A model generated the notes under the pieces. It was not told the origin of the DNA. It saw only the letters and a program-made list of their open reading frames with translations, and searched no databases. The translations under genes and the position numbers were made by a program. Positions 1,003-14,906 of a stretch of 22,441 nucleotides of DNA are shown one piece after another (the stretch's first letter is position 1; the number at the start of each line of letters is the position of its first letter). Source of the stretch: a virus. The DNA lies in the IMG/VR virus record IMGVR_UViG_3300025110_001552, positions 1-22,441 of that record, one strand, 5' to 3'.

Positions 1003-3170
1003 AGTATTACCATTGTACCTGCATTTGTTACTATACCACTTATTGTTAATGGTCCTGCATATACAGCACCATCAGTAGAACCTATAGTGTAATTTGATGT
1101 TTGTTCTTGACTATGAACATAAGCACCACCTGCTGATGTTAAAGCTAGTGTTGTACTCATAGTTGCTCTTTCAGTTCCTGCTGTATCAAATCTAATAATA
1201 TCTTCATCAGCACCTTCTTCTACCTGTATCTTGGTATCGCCATCTGCATCTACTATTTGTGTAGCATCTACACCGCTAACAACTAAGTCTATTGTTCCAT
1301 CTCCATCTTGATATGTAGCTGTTATACCTGTTTCGGTATTGCTACTAAACATAGCACCGACAATATCTTGTATCTGTTCGGTAGTATTTCCTGTAGCAAC
1401 TAAGTCTATAGTGCCATCACTATCTTCATAGGTAACTGTAATGTTAGTTTCTGTATTACCTGTGAACATAGCACCGACAATGTCTTGTACTTGTTCAGTA
1501 GTAAGTTGTGTGTCTGCTGTCATGTCATCTACAACTAAATCTATAGTGCCATCTGAATCTTCATAAGTAGCAGATATTCTAGTTTCTGTGTTGCTAGTAA
1601 ACATAGCACCTACTATGTCTTGTACAGCTTCTGTATTTAGTGTTACTGTTACAGTGTCTGTTGCACTAGCTGCTGTATCAATACCATTACCACCTGCTAT
1701 CTCTAATGTGTTTGCATCAGATATAGTTTGGTCTGAACCAGTATCTCCTGATACAGTAAAACTGTTCATGTTTCCAACACCAGTTCCAGATAAGAAAGCT
1801 GCTCTAGTTTGTTTCTTTAAACCACTAGCAGTGTCATCATATATAAGTATTACATCATTGTTATCAGCAGAAGCTTCATTAGTTTGTCCAGTAATAACTG
1901 TTGCATCTACAGCTATATCATTACCAGATATTGTTAAACCATTTCCACCATCTAATGGTGTTCCAAATACTGTAATTTTTCCACCCATACCAGAGTGTGA
2001 TGTACAATAATAATAAAGAACATCTGGAGTAGCAGCATCTACTGTGTACTCTACATAAGAACCAGTAGTCCCTTGTGATACACCAGAACTTGTTTTGCCT
2101 GTTGTATATTCAGAACCACCACCATGTGAACCATTACTTGTTATAGATAAAGCAAATGGATGTCCAGAAGTAGAGCTATGAGATAAATTAAATCTATGAA
2201 CAACTCCTGGTCTAAAAGATATTGTAGCTTGTGCTTCTCCATCTATATAAAATTTATTACCAGAACCTGGGTTAACAACAGTTACTGCATACTCTACTAT
2301 TACTGGATTATTTTCTAAATTAATAGTTTTATTTGTTAATTCTTGTGTCCCTGTAAGAGTTGCAACAGAACTATCGATAGCTACTGTAATTTTATTAGTA
2401 CCTGTAGCTGTGGCTATACCTGTACTACCTTCAATATCTAATGCTTCAGAATCTAAATCTATTTCAATATTGCTACCAGTATCAGCAGATACTTCTAAAT
2501 GTTCTGCTGTTATTTGGTCATCTACATATTTTTTAATTGATTGTTGTGTAGCAAGATGCGTGTCACTATTACTAGCCATATTATCTTCATCTTTTACAGG
2601 AACAACAAAATCCATTGTTCCATCACTATCTTCGTATGTTACATCTATAAATGTTTCTGTATTACCAGTGACCATACCTCCAACAAAATCTTCTATTGAT
2701 TCTTCTGTTTGTATTTGACTATCTACATACGCTTTTATAGATTGTTGTGTAGCAAGATGTGTAGCACTATCAGATGCCATGTTATCTTCATCTTTAACTA
2801 ATCCTGATGTGTTTACTGCAGTACCATCAGAGTTCATTATTGTATCTACTCTGTCATTTAAGTCATCAAAGTGTTGCTTCATAGCAACCATTCTGACTTT
2901 AGCACCTACAGCGTGTGCGTTTAATCCACCACTATCACTATCAATATTTCTTACTACTGTAAGAGATACTCCACTTCTGCTAGTAACCTTTATATATTCC
3001 CTAGTGCTATCACTATCAGGGTCTATAACAAGATACATTGGATTGGATGCGGAAGGTGAACCTACTGGTGCTGCGTTTACTTGTACTGATACTTCTGTTG
3101 CATCTGCACCAATGGCTAAAGCTAATGTTGTTTCATAAGCATTTTGTAATATGCTTTTTTGTGCGGTCAT
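999..3170 (-). CDS. Repeat-built tail fibre protein with an internal cupredoxin-like domain (723 aa)
   Basis: Domains in order: an N-terminal beta domain (about 13-95) ending LTVVRNIDSDSGGLNAHAVG; a helical joint (97-112, KQHFDDLNDRVD); two copies of a 29-residue VKDEDNMAS...THLATQQSIK unit (125-153, 192-220); a first DIVGAMF-type repeat (159-190); a cupredoxin-like domain (288-405) with His337, Cys389, His392 and Met395 in type-1 copper spacing; three more DIVGAMF...NTET...TYEDSDGTIDLVV repeats (516-547, 561-591, 600-631); and a C-terminal beta region (640-723). Tandem Gly/Thr/Asp-rich repeats of this kind form fibre shafts in phages. The start at 3170 lies one base after the stop of the propeller gene, with AGGA about 7 bases upstream. 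The final codons overlap the next start (ATGA). It is probably the main receptor-binding fibre. Confidence 0.85.
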   Translation of the reverse strand: MTAQKSILQNAYETTLALAIGADATEVSVQVNAAPVGSPSASNPMYLVIDPDSDSTREYIKVTSRSGVSLTVVRNIDSDSGGLNAHAVGAKVRMVAMKQHFDDLNDRVDTIMNSDGTAVNTSGLVKDEDNMASDSATHLATQQSIKAYVDSQIQTEESIEDFVGGMVTGNTETFIDVTYEDSDGTMDFVVPVKDEDNMASNSDTHLATQQSIKKYVDDQITAEHLEVSADTGSNIEIDLDSEALDIEGSTGIATATGTNKITVAIDSSVATLTGTQELTNKTINLENNPVIVEYAVTVVNPGSGNKFYIDGEAQATISFRPGVVHRFNLSHSSTSGHPFALSITSNGSHGGGSEYTTGKTSSGVSQGTTGSYVEYTVDAATPDVLYYYCTSHSGMGGKITVFGTPLDGGNGLTISGNDIAVDATVITGQTNEASADNNDVILIYDDTASGLKKQTRAAFLSGTGVGNMNSFTVSGDTGSDQTISDANTLEIAGGNGIDTAASATDTVTVTLNTEAVQDIVGAMFTSNTETRISATYEDSDGTIDLVVDDMTADTQLTTEQVQDIVGAMFTGNTETNITVTYEDSDGTIDLVATGNTTEQIQDIVGAMFSSNTETGITATYQDGDGTIDLVVSGVDATQIVDADGDTKIQVEEGADEDIIRFDTAGTERATMSTTLALTSAGGAYVHSQEQTSNYTIGSTDGAVYAGPLTISGIVTNAGTMVIL
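1278..1625 (-). repeat. Three tandem ~32-residue fibre repeats
   Basis: Three in-frame copies of a unit reading (V/I)QDIVGAMF..NTET.I..TY(E/Q)D.DGTIDLVV lie at 1530-1625, 1398-1490 and 1278-1373. Spacings are 135 and 117 bases because the linkers differ in length. A fourth, more diverged copy is at 2601-2696 (IEDFVGGMVTGNTETFIDVT...), about 1 kb away on the far side of the cupredoxin-like domain. Third-codon positions vary between copies while the protein is held, as expected for selected shaft repeats. Confidence 0.9.
1956..2309 (-). other. Cupredoxin-like domain inside the tail fibre
   Basis: Residues 288-405 of the fibre read as a beta-rich domain with the ligand set of a type-1 (blue) copper site: a His in SGHPFAL (residue 337) and the loop YYYCTSHSGMGG giving Cys389, His392 and Met395. 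In plastocyanin-like proteins the equivalents are an early His and a Cys-x2-His-x(2-4)-Met loop. The signature is seen directly; copper binding is inference. Confidence 0.7.
2511..2798 (-). repeat. Two copies of a VKDEDNMAS...THLATQQSIK..VD unit
   Basis: Residues 125-153 (bases 2712-2798) and 192-220 (2511-2597) of the fibre protein are near-identical: VKDEDNMAS(D/N)S.THLATQQSIK.YVD.QI. They flank the first DIVGAMF-type repeat, so a composite block has been duplicated. The ...HLATQQSIK.YVD... helix resembles a trimerisation or registration element seen in many phage fibres (recalled pattern). Confidence 0.85.
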
Positions 3171-6218: not shown

Positions 6219-6248
6219 AAGAAAAGGGTGGAGGTGGAGTTCCACCCT
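6219..6248 (-). terminator. Intrinsic terminator after the major capsid gene
   Basis: On the transcribed strand an eight-base stem AGGGTGGA / TCCACCCT (6248-6241 with 6232-6225) encloses an eight-base loop and is followed by TTTCTT. It begins 17 bases after the capsid stop. An alternative shorter hairpin, GGTGG/CCACC, lies inside it. The short T-run suggests partial termination, which would let some transcripts continue into the adaptor and tail genes while boosting capsid message. Confidence 0.7.
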
Positions 6249-6265
6249 AATCTTGTAATTACTTT

Positions 6266-7390
6266 TTAAGCTACTGCTTGAATCTTGCAGTGGTATGAAG
6301 GAGGACCAAATTCAAATCCCATCTCCATATAAATTGCTTTACCAATTCTTGCATTTGCATCTTGGTCAAGGTCACGAACGAACACAGTACCAAATCCTGG
6401 GATGTTGGTAAATACTGGTTGTATGTAAGCCATGTCTAAGATGAATGAAGAACCTGCAGGCATAATGTCAGGGTCAATGACCATTAATCCAATAGAACCA
6501 AATGGGGTTACTACTGTATCAATGTCAATTCCTGCAACATTTCTATCTCTAGGAATGATTGCACCTGTTATTCCGACATTACCACCAATAAGTTCTGTGT
6601 TAAGGTCCAAAAGTTGTTTTGGACTTACACATAGAACTGGTTGCTTTAGTGGTGCATGAGCATCATATAATCTCTTCATAGCACCTGCTATTGCATCAAA
6701 AGAAAGCACTCTTGCTGAACCTGAACCATCTCCTGCGGCATCATTGTAAAAACAATTACCGCCTAGTGGGTTTGCAGATGCAGCTACAGTATTGTTAGCG
6801 TTCTTGCTTTGACTAACCCAATGGTCTATTCCCCACATTTCTCTAGTTCCATCACCTGGGGTGGTATTAGCACCATCAGAGAAAGAACCATTGAATGCGA
6901 ACCATTCTGCTTCTTTTGCTACTTTTTCTAATGCTTTTTCAAGCTGTAATGCAAATTCATCATTTACTGGTGAGCCACCAAATAGTCCTTGTGCAGCACC
7001 TGCTGTTGTTGTTCCATCACCATCTGATTGGTTAACAACATTAGCACTTAGTGTGAAAGGATTTTGATTGCCTGTTGAAGCTAAAGCTGTGTAGGTCATT
7101 TGTACACCTTTATGGAAAATTTGAGTTACATATGTAAATGCACTTCTATCTCTTCCAAGATATTCTGTAGGTGAGTTACCTTCTTTTCCTTTAGTTGGTT
7201 CTGAATTAATGATTGCACTATCTTCTACTTGGACTTGCCAATATGTAGAATTAAGTACTTTACCACCATTCAAACCACCAACTGCTGAAAGCAAAGGTGT
7301 TCTTTGACCGCCAACTTTAAACAATTCACCTGCAAAGTTATTGATATTTTGTGCATATATTGTATCGTTTGTTAACGAAATACTTGCCAT
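6266..7390 (-). CDS. Major capsid protein, HK97-fold type (SU10/DUF5309-like) (374 aa)
   Basis: Forms the head shell. The N-terminal 55 residues are followed by an extended E-loop-like region (VEDSAIINSEPTKGKEGN, 55-72) and an RSAFTYVTQIFHKGVQMTYTAL strand set (82-103). A spine-like helix (EFALQLEKALEKVAKEAEWFAFNG, 145-168) leads to REMWGIDHWV. An A-domain region (250-340) contains PFGSIGLMVIDPDIMPAGSSFILD. This order matches what I know of SU10-type (DUF5309) capsid proteins. Length is normal for an unprocessed HK97-fold subunit. It follows a scaffold-like gene and has a strong AGGAG site (7400-7404) nine bases before ATG. By eye its codons are more G/C-rich at third positions than its neighbours, as expected for a highly expressed gene. 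A terminator follows. Confidence 0.85.
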   Translation of the reverse strand: MASISLTNDTIYAQNINNFAGELFKVGGQRTPLLSAVGGLNGGKVLNSTYWQVQVEDSAIINSEPTKGKEGNSPTEYLGRDRSAFTYVTQIFHKGVQMTYTALASTGNQNPFTLSANVVNQSDGDGTTTAGAAQGLFGGSPVNDEFALQLEKALEKVAKEAEWFAFNGSFSDGANTTPGDGTREMWGIDHWVSQSKNANNTVAASANPLGGNCFYNDAAGDGSGSARVLSFDAIAGAMKRLYDAHAPLKQPVLCVSPKQLLDLNTELIGGNVGITGAIIPRDRNVAGIDIDTVVTPFGSIGLMVIDPDIMPAGSSFILDMAYIQPVFTNIPGFGTVFVRDLDQDANARIGKAIYMEMGFEFGPPSYHCKIQAVA

Positions 7391-7447: not shown

Positions 7448-7900
7448 TTAGCTGTTCTTTTTTGCTTCTTCTATAACAGAGAGCTTGGCAGCTATTGAGT
7501 TACGCACATTTCCTGATTTTTCTATTTCTTTAACCTGTGATACTACATCTGTGTTGTATAAATCTACAACAGAATTTTTCTGTATGTTGTTTAGTTTCTC
7601 TTGACTTTGTTCTACATTTTCTTGTAATCTGTCTTGATTCCCAAACTCAACTTGAAATTCTTGTGATGCGTATTCCTGGATTCCTTCTACAGTTAAATCG
7701 CCTTCGTACATCATCTCAACTGCTTTTCCAACACCTTTAGTAGTGTCAAGACCTGCTTCGTTAAAAACTTGTTGTCTTTCTTTACCTTCGTATTCTGCAA
7801 TTTTAGATTCGTAGAGTGAAAGTTTTTCTCTCATCTCTTTCCAATTCTTATCGCCTGTGTCAGAGTTGTTTAGTTCTTCTGTCATTATTCTATTGTCCAT
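7448..7900 (-). CDS. Scaffold-like capsid assembly protein (150 aa)
   Basis: A short, very charged, helix-forming protein directly before the major capsid gene, the standard site of a scaffolding gene. Residues 18-45 (NWKEMREKLSLYESKIAEYEGKERQ) and 90-150 (RLQENVEQSQEKLNNIQK ... IEEAKKNS) look like coiled coil. There are no cysteines and no membrane segment. It ends in a basic tail, as scaffolds that contact capsid subunits often do. Length is on the short side for the family. ATG at 7900 is preceded by a weak AGAAGAA; the internal Met6 has no ribosome site. It is the first gene after the 185-base leader, so it probably shares the leader's promoter with the capsid gene. The role rests on position and composition, not on a sequence match. 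Confidence 0.7.
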   Translation of the reverse strand: MDNRIMTEELNNSDTGDKNWKEMREKLSLYESKIAEYEGKERQQVFNEAGLDTTKGVGKAVEMMYEGDLTVEGIQEYASQEFQVEFGNQDRLQENVEQSQEKLNNIQKNSVVDLYNTDVVSQVKEIEKSGNVRNSIAAKLSVIEEAKKNS

Positions 7901-7920
7901 TTCTTCTACATTTTTTTACA

Positions 7921-7940
7921 AGAGGTGTAGAGTAACCTCT
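7921..7940 (-). promoter_or_regulatory. Hairpin in the 5' leader of the scaffold gene
   Basis: A perfect six-base inverted repeat, AGAGGT / ACCTCT, with an eight-base loop ends 20 bases before the scaffold ATG at 7900. It is followed by TGTAAAAAAA rather than a T-run on the transcribed strand, so it is not an intrinsic terminator for this transcript. It could shield the message 5' end or act on translation. Confidence 0.45.
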
Positions 7941-7971
7941 GCATTTTTGTCTTACACTACTGTTTTTATTT

Positions 7972-8040
7972 GACAGGTCTTGTCAGTAGGCATCAAGACC
8001 GATTACAAAATGAAGGTCTAGTTTAACCCCCAGACCTGTC
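7972..8040 (-). promoter_or_regulatory. Leader with four mutually complementary segments
   Basis: In the transcribed direction four segments occur: A GACAGGTCT (8040-8032), B AGACC (8019-8015), C GGTCTTG (8000-7994) and D CAAGACCTGTC (7982-7972). A pairs with D over 9 bases and B with C over 5. Alternatively A pairs with B over 5 and C with D over 7. The two folds exclude each other, the topology of attenuators and riboswitch-like leaders. The same GGTCT/AGACC units could instead be repeated protein-binding half-sites in the DNA. No T-run terminator follows segment D. Confidence 0.5.
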
Positions 8041-8083
8041 TACAGGGTCAATATTTAGTATAACAGATAATTGTAAAGTGCAA
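8033..8083 (-). promoter_or_regulatory. Candidate promoter and overlapping dyad for the scaffold-capsid operon
   Basis: A TATACT at 8062-8057 (five of six matches to the bacterial -10 box) lies in AT-rich DNA just after the stop of the 414-residue gene. A weak -35-like TTGCAC sits at 8083-8078 with a 15-base spacer, shorter than usual. The expected start, near 8050, coincides with an imperfect dyad GACCTGT-ct-ACAGGGTC (8033-8049), which could be an operator. This is the only sizeable gap in the window and lies before the genes needed in greatest amount. A phage-polymerase promoter of unknown consensus is an alternative. Confidence 0.45.
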
Positions 8084-8085
8084 GT

Positions 8086-9338: not shown

Positions 9339-10529
9339 CTAACTAAATGCTGCCGATAAATCTTGTTTAAAATTACCTGCCATACCACTAAGTATATCTT
9401 GTTGTACACCTGGTGTATTCTGGTAATCGTTTCTTACTTGCTTACCTATAATTGTGTAATCACCTTTAAAATCTTTAGCTAAGTTATCCATATATGATTT
9501 AAACTCTTTGTTTGGTGCTTGTTTAGTTATGTTAAATCCATAGTTATACAATGGTGCAGACCAAGTGCTGTGTTTAGAACCAGAGAAATGTGGATATACT
9601 TTATCATGTGCAGCTTGTAACTCTGTTCTTATTTTTTCTTCTTGTACATTACTTTCACTAAGTGCATCTAGTCTTAACATACCTGCATACTTTTCTAATT
9701 GTCCTGATTCTATGTAACCATTTAATGCACTTTCACCCATTATGTCAATAATAATATTTTTAGCTGCTAGTTCTCCTGTCTTTGTTTCATCAATCATACC
9801 TATATATTTACGATATGACTCAGGTAAAGCATCTTCACCACCTACCATTTTTCTATAATAAGAATCAGATAACAATCTCATAATTTCAAACCCTTTAGCA
9901 CTACTCATAGCTTGACCTTCTATCATTTTGCCTGATGTAATATCTAATGCTAGTTGTGATGACAAAGCATTAAAACCAGAACCAGTTATACCCAAACCAT
10001 TTAAATCAACATTAAAGTTTTCTTTGTTCTGTGCTAACTGTGCATCTGCTCTGTCTGGTGCAAGTAATTTAAGTTGTATAAAATTTCTTTCTTGTGTTGT
10101 TGTGTTTAAATAATAAGGTGTATTTTCTATTTCCTCTGGTGTTACTGGAATACCTGTAAGTGCAGAAGAAGCATATAGTTTTACAATATCCTCTTCATAC
10201 ACCCAGTTACCTGATATAGCAGCACTTCTATCTATATTCTTTTCTAATATAGTTTCTATATCTGACCAATTTCTGTCATCTGGGTCTTGTAGCTGTGAAT
10301 AATTTAATACTGGTACAAACAATCTTTCGTTTGCATTTTCCCATTCTTCTTTTGTAAATGATTGTATTCCTGTAGGAGGTTGACCATTAGTAAAGTAATT
10401 ATTAGAGTCTATAAAAACAACAAGCGGTAAACTGTATTCTGGTCCTGCAACATTAAATATTCCATAGTATTCGCCATCTACTTGTATGACCTCATCTGAT
10501 TCTATATACTCTGGATTAAAATTACTCAT
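9339..10529 (-). CDS. Unknown structural/ejection-block protein (396 aa)
   Basis: No family recognised. The N-terminal 60 residues look beta-rich (VIQVDGEYYGIFNVAGPEYS, LPLVVFIDSNNYF). Residues 90-390 are mainly helical and charged, including ERNFIQLKLLAPDRADAQLA and a Gly-containing break, GLGITGSGFNALSS. The protein has no cysteines, catalytic signature, signal peptide or membrane segment. The start overlaps the stop of the multidomain effector-like gene as TAATG, with AGGA about 11 bases upstream, so production is probably coupled to that gene. A partner or chaperone of the large protein is one possibility, and a minor virion protein another. Confidence 0.55.
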   Translation of the reverse strand: MSNFNPEYIESDEVIQVDGEYYGIFNVAGPEYSLPLVVFIDSNNYFTNGQPPTGIQSFTKEEWENANERLFVPVLNYSQLQDPDDRNWSDIETILEKNIDRSAAISGNWVYEEDIVKLYASSALTGIPVTPEEIENTPYYLNTTTQERNFIQLKLLAPDRADAQLAQNKENFNVDLNGLGITGSGFNALSSQLALDITSGKMIEGQAMSSAKGFEIMRLLSDSYYRKMVGGEDALPESYRKYIGMIDETKTGELAAKNIIIDIMGESALNGYIESGQLEKYAGMLRLDALSESNVQEEKIRTELQAAHDKVYPHFSGSKHSTWSAPLYNYGFNITKQAPNKEFKSYMDNLAKDFKGDYTIIGKQVRNDYQNTPGVQQDILSGMAGNFKQDLSAAFS

Positions 10530-13500
10530 TATTTATTGCTTCCTGTAAATCCTGCATTATATATACTAGCAGGATTTTCCTTAAGTTTTGTAGTATAATC
10601 GCTAGTGGTTTGGTCTGTACCAGATTTGTACGCTTCACCTATTAAAAACATTAAACCTTTTGTTAAACCCCATCCTGGTGAATATTTAGATATTTTTTCT
10701 TGGTCTAATTCATTCATAAACTGACTACCAAAATCAAACTCTTCTAGTTGTTTTTTACCTGGCGGTGTTTGAAAATAATCATATGCAGACATACCTAATA
10801 CTTTAACTGGTTTTCCTGTAGCATCTAACTCTGGTTGTCGTAATTCGTTATACACAGCACCACCTTCTCTGTATTTGTAAGCAGATGAATCTGCATATAA
10901 CGCTGCTTGTGCAACATCAGCTAATGCTACTCCTATTTCGTAAGCTATGTATGTTGGCAATATGTTACCAAATTTTAATCTACCAAAACCTAATTTAGAT
11001 GCTGCATCATCTAAATATGGAACTGCTTTTTCTATAGCTTTTTCTATAGCAACATCTCCTGGTGCTAATGCAGGTGCTATTTTACCTAATCCTGCTAATG
11101 CAGTTCCACCTAGTACACCAAATCGTGTAAGAGTTTTAGCTAATGTATTGTATAACTTTGGATTTTTAGCAACTGTTTCTTGTGCTAGTTGTGCAGCTAG
11201 TTTGCTATCAGTACCACCTTGTTGCATTTTATTTTGCACAGCAACTTTTATTTCTTTTTCTGTTGGTGCTGTAGAGAATCTGTGATTAGTTAATGATACT
11301 TCTAAATTGTTTATCTCTGGTACAAATTGATTTACCACATCACTGTCAGATGCTATATATCCTTTAAAGTTACCTGCATCCCAGTATTGTTCTACATTAG
11401 CAAAATTTTCACCTAGTATTTTTTCTATCTCTTGTACAGATATTTGATTAGCTTCCATATCTAGCAATACATTAAATTTTTTATCTTGTAACTGTTCTGG
11501 TGTATAGTATTTAGATTTAAAAGTATTTTTTAATTCTTCATTAGCTTTGTATATTGCATCATTGTTAGCAAATTTTTCTTCTATTATTATTATTCCATTT
11601 TCATTTAACAAGTTTTCTTTTATAAATTTAATTTGTTCTGCTCTATTTTTATCCATAAATTGAAATGCCATAGACTCATGTACTACATCATATTTATCTA
11701 CTTCATTAAATACAGCAAATCTTACAGGTTGAAATGCTTTAGCATCAAATATTTTATCTTGGTCATCTAATACATAACTAAATGCTTCTCTTCTAAATAT
11801 TGCATTAGTAACTAATTCACCTTCTTCAAATACATCTTGTGCTTTTTTTAATGGGTCTAACACTTCTACATAAAAGTTTGGATTATTTTTAGCTAATGCT
11901 TTTGCCCATGTTCCTTCTGTTCCTCCTATATCTAATACTTGATATCTTCCTTTTAATAAGTTGTCAGGCATAGGTTGTTTGTTAAGTAAATTAGATAATG
12001 CTAAACCTTTTATTATTTGTGTTTCATAAAATGTAGGTATTGATGTAAAAATGTGTTGATTAAAGTTGCCACCTTCTTTAACTAATTTGTTATAGTCATC
12101 TTGCCACTTATAAATATCTGGATTGTTCAAATCTATAATCTGTTCATACGCTGATTTTGGTCTATATTTTTCATTAATACCTTTTACAACATCATCAAAA
12201 AAGTCTTGTGATGCTTGACCTGCATCAGCTAAAGGTTTACTAATATTTTCTATTTCAAATCCATTTTTTGGTAAATCAGATACATTTATTCTGTTAACAT
12301 CATCTTGTATTAATACCTGCTCTAGCTTTGCACTAGGTTTGTTTGCTGCTTCTGCAAGAACAATTATTTCTTGCTCATTACTAAATGACAATCCTAAAGC
12401 ATCTAAATCTATCATGTTGTTTTTGTGTATTAAATAAGTTTCTACAGTATCACCTGCACCATATAATTGATTCATTTGATAAGATACAGCTTGTGCTGAT
12501 GATGGACTTTTAGACATTGATTGCCATGGGTAAAATCTATTTAATTTACCACCACGCCATAACACAAAATAGTCATTAGGATTATTTTTATATATTTTAT
12601 TATGTGCATCTATTATTACATTTCTCATGCGTTCTTTTAAGTTAGTAAATTGACCTTGTTCAGTTACTAACTCAACTAATACTTTATTTATTTCTGGTCC
12701 AAGTTCAGAGTTACGAGATTGTAGTCTGTCTAAAAAAAATGCTTCATCATTAAATACACCCATAGGTATAACTTCTGTAATTGGCTTATCACTAAAAATA
12801 CCAATTTTGACAATATCTGATAGTGCATCTGCTTGGAAATATGGTTTATGTGCGTATGCAGTTGATGGACTGTGACTAGCTAAATATATAAAAAACTTAG
12901 TTATATCTTCATCAGATGCTCTGTTTTTTAATATTCTTTCATATAATTCTTTAGCATCAAAACTTGTAGTTCTATTCCAGATATATTCTTTACCTTCTCT
13001 AGTGTATCTAGTAAAAGAGTCTGGATTAAATACTTTATTAGGTTTGATTACATCATCTGCCCATTCATCTATTTCACCTACTGGTACATCTAGTACATCT
13101 GAAGTGTAATTAAATCTTGTTTCTAGTAATGGTGCATCATCTACTACATTTGTAGGTGTGTCTGGTATATCTGTATAGTATTTATAGTAACCATTTAATG
13201 TTCTGTCATATTTGTCCATGCCTTGTATGTTTTTTCTTGGGTCAATAGGTTCAACTTTATTTCCTTGTTCATCTAATACCCAATCCCAATCTTCCATTTC
13301 TGCTAAAGCCATATCTTCAAAAGGAGTAGGTTCTGTCCAACCATCAAAAACAATAGCCATGTCCTCTGTTTTTTTTGTAGTGTATAAATCATCATTAAAT
13401 GCTATTACATCATAAAAAACATCTTGATTAACAGCACCTAATATTCTTGACTTAACTGTTTGGTCTACTATGCCTTCAGATAATTTATCGTACTTTCTGT

Positions 13501-14326
13501 ATCTTGATAACAAACCTTCTTTTATGTGTGGATTATCTATTTGTTCTATAAAATTATCTAAACTTTTTCTAAATTCTTCAGGCGTTACTCCTTCTTTTAA
13601 CTGATAACCTGTGCCACTTTGTTCTCTTAGCAAATCATCAGGAGTTAATGTATCTCCTTTTCCTTCATAAAAAGGTATTGGACCAAGTTCTTCAACAGGA
13701 TAGTTTTTTATAAATTCATCATAAGAAATATTATCAGGTCTTTCTAGAATATTTTGGCTGAACAATTCAGAATTTTTTTCTACTGGTAATTCACCAATTA
13801 CATTTTTATCTAAATTTTTAAAAGCTTCTACTTGATTTTCGTAGCCAATCATAGTTGCTTTAATATCATCTACTACATTTGTAGGTGTGTCTGTATTTTC
13901 TAAAGTATTTGGTATTGTAATATCATTTTCTAATGTAGTTGGTAATGTTGTTTCAACTGGAAAGGTATCATAATACTCTAATAAAACACCTTTCATACCT
14001 TTGCCTTCTTTTAATATTTTATTGAATTTATCTAATGCTTGTACATCTCCACCTTTACCTTTAGCATTAAAAGAATAATCTACAATAACTTCACCATCTG
14101 GAAAAACCCTTTGTACATTAACTATTGTGTCATCTAAAGTTTTATTTACATCAACTATTTCTGAACCAGATATACCTGTTTTTATTGGTATGTCATCTGG
14201 TAATTCTAAAACAAATTCATACTTCACTCCACCAACATCTTCTGCATAAAATATACTATTTTGAATGCCAGATGATTGTTTTATTAAAAACTCTTTAACT
14301 AATGCTATCCAATCTTTTTCAGCCAT
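10529..14326 (-). CDS. Multidomain virion/effector-like protein: ADP-ribosyltransferase plus SAM methyltransferase (1265 aa)
   Basis: I chose ATG 14326 (MAEKDW) because AAGG lies five bases before it; an in-frame ATG at 14338 lacks a ribosome site. Residues 1-115 are beta-rich and 115-430 are linker-like with two TPTNVVDD copies. Residues 440-585 are helical. Residues 587-660 carry an R-S-E ADP-ribosyltransferase signature: Arg591 in VLWRGG, Ser603-Met-Ser605 followed by a SPSSAQAVS helix, and Glu651-x-Glu653 in SNEQEIIV. Residues 797-917 hold class I methyltransferase motifs: VLDIGGTEGTW (SAM loop), EVLDP with acidic Asp824, YDVVHESMAFQFM, and LLNENGIIIIEE. Hydrophobic stretches (1067-1090, 1122-1145) may touch membrane. 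The gene follows the lytic enzyme in the putative ejection block. The domains are seen in sequence; delivery into the host and the targets are inferred, by analogy with T4 Alt (an injected ADP-ribosyltransferase) and phage polyvalent proteins. Confidence 0.8.
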   Translation of the reverse strand: MAEKDWIALVKEFLIKQSSGIQNSIFYAEDVGGVKYEFVLELPDDIPIKTGISGSEIVDVNKTLDDTIVNVQRVFPDGEVIVDYSFNAKGKGGDVQALDKFNKILKEGKGMKGVLLEYYDTFPVETTLPTTLENDITIPNTLENTDTPTNVVDDIKATMIGYENQVEAFKNLDKNVIGELPVEKNSELFSQNILERPDNISYDEFIKNYPVEELGPIPFYEGKGDTLTPDDLLREQSGTGYQLKEGVTPEEFRKSLDNFIEQIDNPHIKEGLLSRYRKYDKLSEGIVDQTVKSRILGAVNQDVFYDVIAFNDDLYTTKKTEDMAIVFDGWTEPTPFEDMALAEMEDWDWVLDEQGNKVEPIDPRKNIQGMDKYDRTLNGYYKYYTDIPDTPTNVVDDAPLLETRFNYTSDVLDVPVGEIDEWADDVIKPNKVFNPDSFTRYTREGKEYIWNRTTSFDAKELYERILKNRASDEDITKFFIYLASHSPSTAYAHKPYFQADALSDIVKIGIFSDKPITEVIPMGVFNDEAFFLDRLQSRNSELGPEINKVLVELVTEQGQFTNLKERMRNVIIDAHNKIYKNNPNDYFVLWRGGKLNRFYPWQSMSKSPSSAQAVSYQMNQLYGAGDTVETYLIHKNNMIDLDALGLSFSNEQEIIVLAEAANKPSAKLEQVLIQDDVNRINVSDLPKNGFEIENISKPLADAGQASQDFFDDVVKGINEKYRPKSAYEQIIDLNNPDIYKWQDDYNKLVKEGGNFNQHIFTSIPTFYETQIIKGLALSNLLNKQPMPDNLLKGRYQVLDIGGTEGTWAKALAKNNPNFYVEVLDPLKKAQDVFEEGELVTNAIFRREAFSYVLDDQDKIFDAKAFQPVRFAVFNEVDKYDVVHESMAFQFMDKNRAEQIKFIKENLLNENGIIIIEEKFANNDAIYKANEELKNTFKSKYYTPEQLQDKKFNVLLDMEANQISVQEIEKILGENFANVEQYWDAGNFKGYIASDSDVVNQFVPEINNLEVSLTNHRFSTAPTEKEIKVAVQNKMQQGGTDSKLAAQLAQETVAKNPKLYNTLAKTLTRFGVLGGTALAGLGKIAPALAPGDVAIEKAIEKAVPYLDDAASKLGFGRLKFGNILPTYIAYEIGVALADVAQAALYADSSAYKYREGGAVYNELRQPELDATGKPVKVLGMSAYDYFQTPPGKKQLEEFDFGSQFMNELDQEKISKYSPGWGLTKGLMFLIGEAYKSGTDQTTSDYTTKLKENPASIYNAGFTGSNK
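13136..13164 (-). repeat. 29-base direct repeat, copy 1 (inside the effector-like gene)
   Basis: This 29-base stretch is identical to 13865-13893, 729 bases away in the same gene and the same frame. It encodes TPTNVVDD near residues 390-397. Confidence 0.9.
13865..13893 (-). repeat. 29-base direct repeat, copy 2 (inside the effector-like gene)
   Basis: Exact partner of 13136-13164. It encodes TPTNVVDD near residues 147-154, within a low-complexity linker that also repeats TLEN(D/T). The 729-base spacing is a multiple of three, so recombination between copies would delete 243 residues in frame. Confidence 0.9.
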
Positions 14327-14906
14327 TGTTACCTTCATTAGGTGATGGTATGTTAGCTATACTAGATGAGTCATAATCAAACAAGTTTCCAAATTCTTTA
14401 GATTTAACTTGCATATAAGAATTAACATAAGCACCTATTGCATCAGTAACGCTTTCTAAGTCTCTATCTATTTTTTTACCTTTTGTAAAAGGTACTACAT
14501 AGTCTTTATATGCGTTCCATTTGTTTAATGGGTCTCCATCAGTTCCAAAAGATTTAGGATTATCAGATAATCTTTTTATGTAATGTGCAACAAATTGTGA
14601 AGCAAATTTTTCGTTATTGTTTATTTTGTTAACAAATTCTTTTTGTGTATATTCTTTCCCTGACTCTTTAAAAAAAGTTGTCAATGTTTCATCAGGTTTA
14701 TTTTCATCTCTGTTTTTATAAAAACCTTCTACATTGACTTGATACACACCATAATCTTTAGTGCCATTAGTATTTGTTCCAATAACATCATTATTTAATC
14801 CAGATTCAAAAGAAGCAGTCATAATTAATAATGGTATTAAAGCATCACTAACACCAAAATTTTGTAGATATTCTACTAAATCACTTATTCGTACAGAGAC
14901 AGCCAT
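14319..14906 (-). CDS. Lytic transglycosylase/lysozyme-like wall-degrading enzyme (195 aa)
   Basis: Predicted to cut the peptidoglycan glycan strand. Residues 28-58 show the lysozyme/SLT pattern: a helix ending in the catalytic acid, IMTASFESGLN (Glu34), then G.NTNGTKDYGVYQVN (50-58), the 'YG.(Y/F)Q(I/V)N' beta hairpin that lines the active site. KWNAYKDY at 129-136 matches the closing segment of this fold. There is no signal peptide or membrane anchor, and the gene lies between large putative virion proteins rather than beside a holin. A virion-carried enzyme that opens the wall for DNA entry (the role of the T7 gp16 N-terminal domain) is therefore more likely than a lysis enzyme. A good AGGTGG site precedes the start, and its stop is overlapped by the next gene. 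Confidence 0.8.
   Translation of the reverse strand: MAVSVRISDLVEYLQNFGVSDALIPLLIMTASFESGLNNDVIGTNTNGTKDYGVYQVNVEGFYKNRDENKPDETLTTFFKESGKEYTQKEFVNKINNNEKFASQFVAHYIKRLSDNPKSFGTDGDPLNKWNAYKDYVVPFTKGKKIDRDLESVTDAIGAYVNSYMQVKSKEFGNLFDYDSSSIANIPSPNEGNNG

Follow-up and report, generated by a model that had tools for sequence, protein, structure and literature searches.

A gap of 185 bases (8085-7901, minus strand) separates a 414-aa ORF from a 150-aa ORF that is followed by a major capsid gene. We read it as the untranslated 5′ leader of a scaffold-capsid mRNA, and by sequence comparison the leader RNA almost certainly folds into a row of H-type pseudoknots. The gap lies in a 22,441-nucleotide stretch of viral DNA (IMG/VR record IMGVR_UViG_3300025110_001552, positions 1 to 22,441), hereafter the window, whose large genes are on the minus strand. 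Described in the first-pass annotation as the only large gap, it is the largest between the minus-strand genes and stands directly 5′ of the scaffold-position ORF and the major capsid protein (MCP) gene. Its RNA can be drawn as three consecutive pseudoknots, PK1 to PK3, each with two stems, S1 and S2. The parts of the capsid unit are as follows.

8078-8083, minus strand: −35-like TTGCAC in the sequence, at a spacing of 15 bases from the −10; many relatives have a similar box
8057-8062, minus strand: predicted −10-like TATACT with upstream TG
8047-8014, minus strand: PK1; S1 CCCUG/UGGGG (8043-8047/8028-8032), S2 AGGUC/GACCU (8033-8037/8014-8018)
8000-7957, minus strand: PK2; S1 GGUCUUG/CAAGACC (7994-8000/7976-7982), S2 CUACUG/CAGUAG (7984-7989/7957-7962)
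7940-7905, minus strand: PK3; S1 AGAGGU/ACCUCU (7935-7940/7921-7926), S2 UCUAC/GUAGA (7927-7931/7905-7909)
7448-7900, minus strand: 150-aa ORF in the scaffold position, placed before the MCP as in Bernal13
6266-7390, minus strand: MCP (phrog_1328, E 1e-25)
6219-6248, minus strand: predicted terminator-like hairpin with a U-rich tail, after the MCP; similar hairpin in relatives

The leader was scored with a pseudoknot-chain scanner, a purpose-written script that applies simple energies to a single sequence and uses no alignment. The chain score of the window leader was −44.8, compared with −15.6 ± 5.4 in shuffled sequences, none of 2000 of which scored as well, and the leader supplied the three best z-scores among 1116 windows taken over both strands.

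Transcription usually starts about 7 bases past a −10 box. In 139 of 150 leader segments the distance from the end of a TATAAT-like box to the first pseudoknot is 7-10 bases (5 segments were unresolved), and with the usual spacing the predicted transcript start would lie 0-3 bases before PK1. The TTGCAC box was not listed by a consensus promoter scan because it is only 15 bases from the −10. That general scan returned 10 sites against 24.2 in shuffles, the leader promoter not being among them. At the other end, all 115 aligned leaders leave 0-9 bases between the last pseudoknot and a Shine-Dalgarno (SD)-like motif, and 11-21 bases between that pseudoknot and the start codon; the motif is merely GGA in 13 of the 30 leaders of the window's own type, including the window's relatives. 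The scaffold ORF probably begins at its second ATG, at 7885 (window 7900-7883, minus strand), since many relatives have AAGGA where the first ATG stands.

A hairpin with a U-rich tail follows the MCP gene in 73 of 75 distinct post-MCP segments, so that the scaffold and MCP genes look like a transcription unit of their own. The whole reads as promoter, pseudoknot row, scaffold, MCP and terminator, with the promoter, start site and terminator being predicted. The post-MCP hairpin is built on two different stems (AGGGTGG.../...CCACCCT and TGGGAG.../...CTCCCA) that mostly carry one loop, CUCCACC, and this shared loop suggests that the hairpin is more than a plain terminator. Elsewhere in the window, a 1269-aa protein (10529-14338, minus strand) has a weak methyltransferase match and a 195-aa protein (14319-14906, minus strand) a weak C-type lysozyme match, both below the Pfam cut-off. 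A search of the window for tRNAs and Rfam RNAs returned none.

Leader types and covariation

Relatives of the MCP were found at 138 loci in IMG/VR, of which the best 80 were taken; five of these were truncated and the other 75 yielded a leader. Sorted by motif and by eye, the 75 leaders comprised 36 of type 1, the type of the window, 35 of type 2, 2 of type 2′ and just 2 of type 3 (L062 and L070, the first pseudoknot of L070 being placed by eye). A search with a more distant MCP brought additional leaders of types 2 and 2′ and leaders of type 4. Exact-pattern scans then matched 87 stretches for type 1, 78 for type 2 and 97 for type 4, chance matches included, and the loci listed from them were 80 of the 87, all 78 and 80 of the 97. 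Among these listed loci a scaffold ORF adjoins every type-1 and type-2 match with enough downstream DNA, and 72 of the 80 type-4 loci have a scaffold or MCP gene downstream; two further type-4 loci carry the same leader with downstream DNA too short to tell, and six are chance matches (L294, L297, L302, L306, L312 and L344). No phage in INPHARED matched any of the three leaders used as queries, which represented types 1, 4 and 2.

Five sequence types were seen, all before a scaffold gene and two of them with four pseudoknots. They share the same plan, and the sequence of PK2 is wholly different between them. Since the plan persists over five almost completely different types, it must be under selection as an RNA shape.

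Across 150 leader segments, which are non-identical and in some cases represent one contig cut at different borders, the scanner found chains of three pseudoknots in 113, four in 36 and two in 1. All 200 shuffles were beaten by 119 of the 150 (median z −3.9), compared with all 100 shuffles by 1 of 66 control segments from inside the upstream gene (median z −0.3). For 14 of the 150 more than 2 of 200 shuffles were as good, the weakest being L015 (57 shuffles), L073 (23) and L075 (22). When whole records were ranked at a raw score of −24 or better, the leader came first in G005, second in G001 and outside the ten best in G006. High scores were also obtained by an unrelated 476-base gap in G001 (1780-2255, minus strand, part of L379; z −5.05), whose score is apparently driven by strong ordinary hairpins, and by an unrelated gap in G005 (25473-26175, plus strand; z −3.18). 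On reading, neither gap resembles the leaders, and such scores mean that the scanner does not show a genome to have a single such array.

Covariation was followed in alignments of 30 distinct type-1 leaders (A1), 28 type-2 leaders (A2) and 57 type-4 leaders (A3), 115 in total; A3 omits the type-2′ loci L299, L304, L318, L339 and L350, the truncated L300 and L324, and 10 duplicates. The proposed stems pair in 97.2% of 957 cells in A1, 98.4% of 864 in A2 and 98.4% of 2498 in A3, the last with four pseudoknots. Both sides change in 9 of 32 pairs in A1 (74 cells), 18 of 31 in A2 (82 cells) and 19 of 44 in A3 (108 cells), and the covariation score was reached by 0 of 500 shuffles in each alignment. 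Sliding the partners by 1-3 columns, a control that keeps relatedness where shuffles do not, lowered pairing to 32-49% in all three. Two of the five measures were unremarkable for A1, with the number of both-side pairs reached by 10 of 500 shuffles and that of further pair types by 493 of 500; the same two measures were reached by 0 and 2 of 500 in A2, and by 0 and 0 in A3.

Several single stems illustrate the pattern. PK1 S1 occurs in type 1 as seven different helices and is paired in all 30 leaders, S1 of the second pseudoknot in type 2 takes 17 different helices and is fully paired in 21 of 28, and S1 of the last pseudoknot in type 4 takes 15 and is paired in 57 of 57. PK3 S1 is also paired in 30 of 30 type-1 leaders. 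Residual alignment faults lower the A1 counts for PK1 S2, fully paired in 26 of 30 rows with the other 4 off by one base, and for PK3 S2, fully paired in 24 of 30 with the other 6 gapped or off register. Such faults lower the counts in A2 and A3 as well, where rows that are not fully paired number 5 of 28 at PKc S1, 7 of 28 at PKb S1 and 2 of 28 at each PKa stem in A2, and 15 of 57 at PKc S1 (7 clearly one base off) and 2 of 57 at PKb S1 in A3. The stems of type-1 PK2 are invariant in 30 of 30 save for the sixth S2 pair, leaving twelve unvarying core pairs. The pattern-derived sets are biased, because the search pattern itself fixes PK2 in L082-L161, as it fixes PK1 in A3, and permits no variation. 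The PK2 loops of type 1 are nearly invariant too, with one variable base, one T/C site and one T inserted in a single row. Type-1 covariation thus says nothing on PK2, and its support comes from the other types, in which the second pseudoknot has the same layout built from different stems. Comparison across the aligned types establishes the predicted pseudoknots, their place and their number in each type.

These covarying stems support the proposal in the first-pass annotation of an RNA-level leader before the scaffold and capsid genes. The same annotation had allowed that the repeated GGTCT/AGACC units, which do recur in the window leader, might instead be DNA sites for a regulator. A DNA-level element of any kind (operator repeats, a replication origin or a packaging site) is scarcely credible, since DNA dyads cannot account for interleaved stems of which both covary, the excess of G-U cells (202) over A-C cells (22) indicates a sense-strand RNA, and the GGTCT/AGACC units are not conserved in the other leader types.

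The pseudoknots also bear on an earlier reading of the gap as a switch, in which four segments would fold in two mutually exclusive ways, A-D enclosing B-C or A-B followed by C-D. All four segments are present exactly as given, on the minus strand (A, GACAGGTCT, 8040-8032; B, AGACC; C, GGTCTTG, 8000-7994; D, CAAGACCTGTC, 7982-7972). Both folds can be drawn over the 69-base stretch 7972-8040, with A-D + B-C the lower in energy as a nested fold, at −18.1 compared with −14.7 kcal/mol for A-B + C-D. The nested fold of this stretch is unremarkable (z −1.28, 24 of 200 shuffles equally good); that of the whole gap, 7901-8085, gave z −1.64, with 13 of 200 shuffles equally good. The stretch omits the PK1 strand 8043-8047, the PK2 strand 7957-7962 and the entire PK3. 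Over the 30 distinct type-1 leaders the A-D + B-C fold pairs in 79.5% of 420 cells, a level equalled or exceeded in 204 of 500 shuffles, and none of its 14 pairs changes on both sides. A-B reads AAGTC/GACTT in 6 of the 30 and AGGTC/GACCT otherwise, a compensatory change that preserves A-B and costs A-D one pair. The covariation check that had been suggested for related leaders hence finds compensatory change in A-B and none in A-D + B-C. The A-B and C-D helices are real, as one stem each of PK1 and PK2, and it is their membership of mutually exclusive states that is not supported; a two-state attenuator was rejected on the lack of compensatory change in A-D + B-C, and we consider it extremely unlikely. 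In a consensus terminator scan the A-B hairpin appeared with a weak tail, TCATTTTGTA, and C-D was absent from the same scan.

Scaffold proteins, mosaic modules and host

The 150-aa ORF has no PHROG or Pfam match, and its structure model is weak and all-helical, with a mean pLDDT of 60. We call it the scaffold because its position before the MCP matches that in the actinophage Bernal13, where an annotated scaffolding protein directly precedes an MCP 29% identical to that of the window. The two capsid modules share this gene order and differ in the space before it, Bernal13 having only 68 bases before its scaffold gene, too short for such an array.

Over 96 loci, scaffold identity is at least 41% within a leader type (median 64) and at most 45% between types (median 32). 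As a measure of how well identity separates by leader type, the AUC is 1.000 (after rounding) for the scaffold, 0.624 for the MCP and 0.793 for the end of the upstream gene. Judged by these comparisons, leader and scaffold move as one module. A protein-RNA pair would account for the match, and so would simple linkage across about 20 bases. All the scaffolds are acidic (98 proteins, pI 4.3-5.0).

Some capsid modules are mosaic. L062 and L047 share 92% MCP identity and differ in leader type, and in L085 and L125 a type-1 leader and scaffold are joined to an MCP of only 56% identity. Three contigs carry two capsid-module or leader matches each, namely L042/L060 (IMGVR_UViG_3300020468_000009), L239/L243 (IMGVR_UViG_3300025769_000167) and L126/L145 (IMGVR_UViG_3300030106_001776). 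Tandem genomes, end overlap, chimeric assembly and a duplicated module are all candidates to account for them.

One match, L205, fell in a cellular contig (PBPX01000045.1) of the Actinomycetota MAG RS345. This MAG (G007) contains two such MCPs, on contigs C30 and C36, together with three WhiB proteins and one RNase E/G; a search of it for RNase J (TIGR00649) found none, and a search of six phage records for WhiB likewise found none. An Actinomycetota host is tentative, as phage contigs in a MAG may be contamination. Phages of Actinomarinales are described (PMC7771536).

Possible roles and nearest known systems

We infer that the leader very probably acts in cis on the scaffold-capsid message. 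As its main role we favour, tentatively, shielding of the 5′ end combined with support of translation. A sigma-70-like promoter would start the transcript just before the first pseudoknot, and three H-type pseudoknots, or four in some relatives, would then form along the RNA with hardly a break between them. The row would lock the 5′ end in structure and so hinder 5′-end-dependent decay (by RppH with RNase E, or by RNase J), and the last pseudoknot, stopping just short of the SD, would leave the ribosome site free. The outcome may be a long-lived, well-translated capsid message.

Paired 5′ ends are reported to stabilise messages, as RppH and RNase E need single-stranded ends, and 5′ roadblocks are explained there by RNase J1 (PMC3997798); a folded xrRNA is reported to halt bacterial RNase J1 in vitro (PMC5760640). 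The likeness to such 5′ stabilisers and xrRNAs lies in structure at or near the 5′ end, here a predicted one, that hinders end-dependent decay, here as a candidate role, whereas flaviviral xrRNAs are ring-like folds in the 3′ untranslated regions of RNA viruses. Two features fit a 5′ shield: the array spans the leader between predicted start and SD, and its plan tolerates wholly different sequences in different types. The RNase E/G of the candidate host MAG also speaks for it. However, a simple hairpin would already be enough for 5′-end protection, and the three or four pseudoknots and the near-invariant PK2 of type 1 therefore suggest something more specific than shielding. The match between leader type and scaffold type also counts against shielding, which does not predict it. 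Further points against are the missing RNase J hit in the tentative host MAG, the promoter scan that passed over the leader promoter, and the SD-like motif reduced to GGA in 13 of the 30 type-1 leaders.

The main rival to shielding is autogenous control by the scaffold, which we place on the unlikely side. Free scaffold, or an assembly intermediate, would bind the pseudoknots of its own leader and lower translation, tying synthesis to assembly. The near-invariance of type-1 PK2 and the leader-scaffold match fit such control better than they fit a shield. Scaffold identity separates by leader type, that of the MCP hardly does and that of the upstream gene end does so partly, L085 and L125 keep leader and scaffold together with a divergent MCP, and the last pseudoknot abuts the SD. 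The P22 scaffold exerts post-transcriptional self-control. The gene 32 leaders of T4, T2 and RB69 offer a phage precedent, in which an H-type pseudoknot in an mRNA leader, upstream of the ribosome site, is bound in T4 by the gene's own product (PMC3014915). Gene 32 has a single pseudoknot 67 bases before the start, followed by unstructured A+U-rich sequence, and a known binder, whereas here three or four pseudoknots end close to the start codon and the scaffold is a candidate binder, suggested by its co-inheritance with the leader type. The conserved A+U-rich tract between pseudoknot and SD is absent, which argues against an operator of the gene 32 kind. Linkage over about 20 bases could by itself yield the leader-scaffold match, and two milder points against are the acidity of the scaffolds and a report that T4 produces its structural proteins at a rate that does not depend on their assembly (PMC9576892). 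In its stronger form, where every scaffold recognises the leader of its own type as an operator of several pseudoknots and the two make a swappable cognate pair, the proposal is a shade less likely again.

A riboswitch-like leader, in which a metabolite or host protein would bind to one of the pseudoknots (PK2 being the likeliest) and thereby set translation, is improbable. Known aptamers such as preQ1-I and SAM-II are built as an H-type pseudoknot with an A-rich third loop, and the near-invariance of type-1 PK2 is in keeping with a sensor; but no Rfam match was found, and PK2 differs wholly in sequence between types, unlike a conserved binding pocket. A virion-gene transcript that begins with structured RNA also suggests other actions of that RNA, either put-like processive antitermination or nucleation of capsid assembly by the leader RNA, and these are more doubtful still. 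The terminator-like hairpin that follows the MCP in nearly all relatives is hard to square with a late-gene antiterminator, and the presence of leader RNA in particles is conjectural.

To our knowledge, the main known example of pseudoknots in rows is STAXI, a motif of unexplained function that is included in Rfam. As described by Weinberg et al. (2010, PMC2864571), STAXI is a pseudoknot of unknown role that is repeated two or three times near DNA-handling genes, often with UUCG tetraloops. It is the nearest known kind to the leaders, sharing the tandem plan (here three or four pseudoknots per leader) and none of the other features tested. STAXI repeats the same unit, whereas PK1, PK2 and PK3 differ in stems and loops; the window leader has no TTCG, and in type-2 leaders TTCG does occur but, by eye, not as a closed tetraloop. 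In place of DNA-handling genes the neighbours here are scaffold, MCP and other structural-region genes, and the array fills the mRNA leader from predicted start to SD. No Rfam model was matched by the window leader (E up to 5), by a single leader from each of types 2, 4 and 3 (E up to 1) or by type 2′ (L068, at gathering scores). In the open-access papers searched, STAXI and gene 32 were the nearest cases found, and neither a capsid-leader pseudoknot array nor a structured phage capsid leader was found there.

In a large group of marine phages, then, three or four RNA knots would open the capsid message, and they probably protect or control it. If the operator reading is true, the phage would gauge free scaffold through serial RNA knots and thereby match capsid-protein synthesis to assembly. 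Swap comparisons could draw on the leader and scaffold types that occur naturally, and the leaders offer a test case for the purpose of tandem pseudoknots and for how tailed phages set their supply of scaffold and coat protein.
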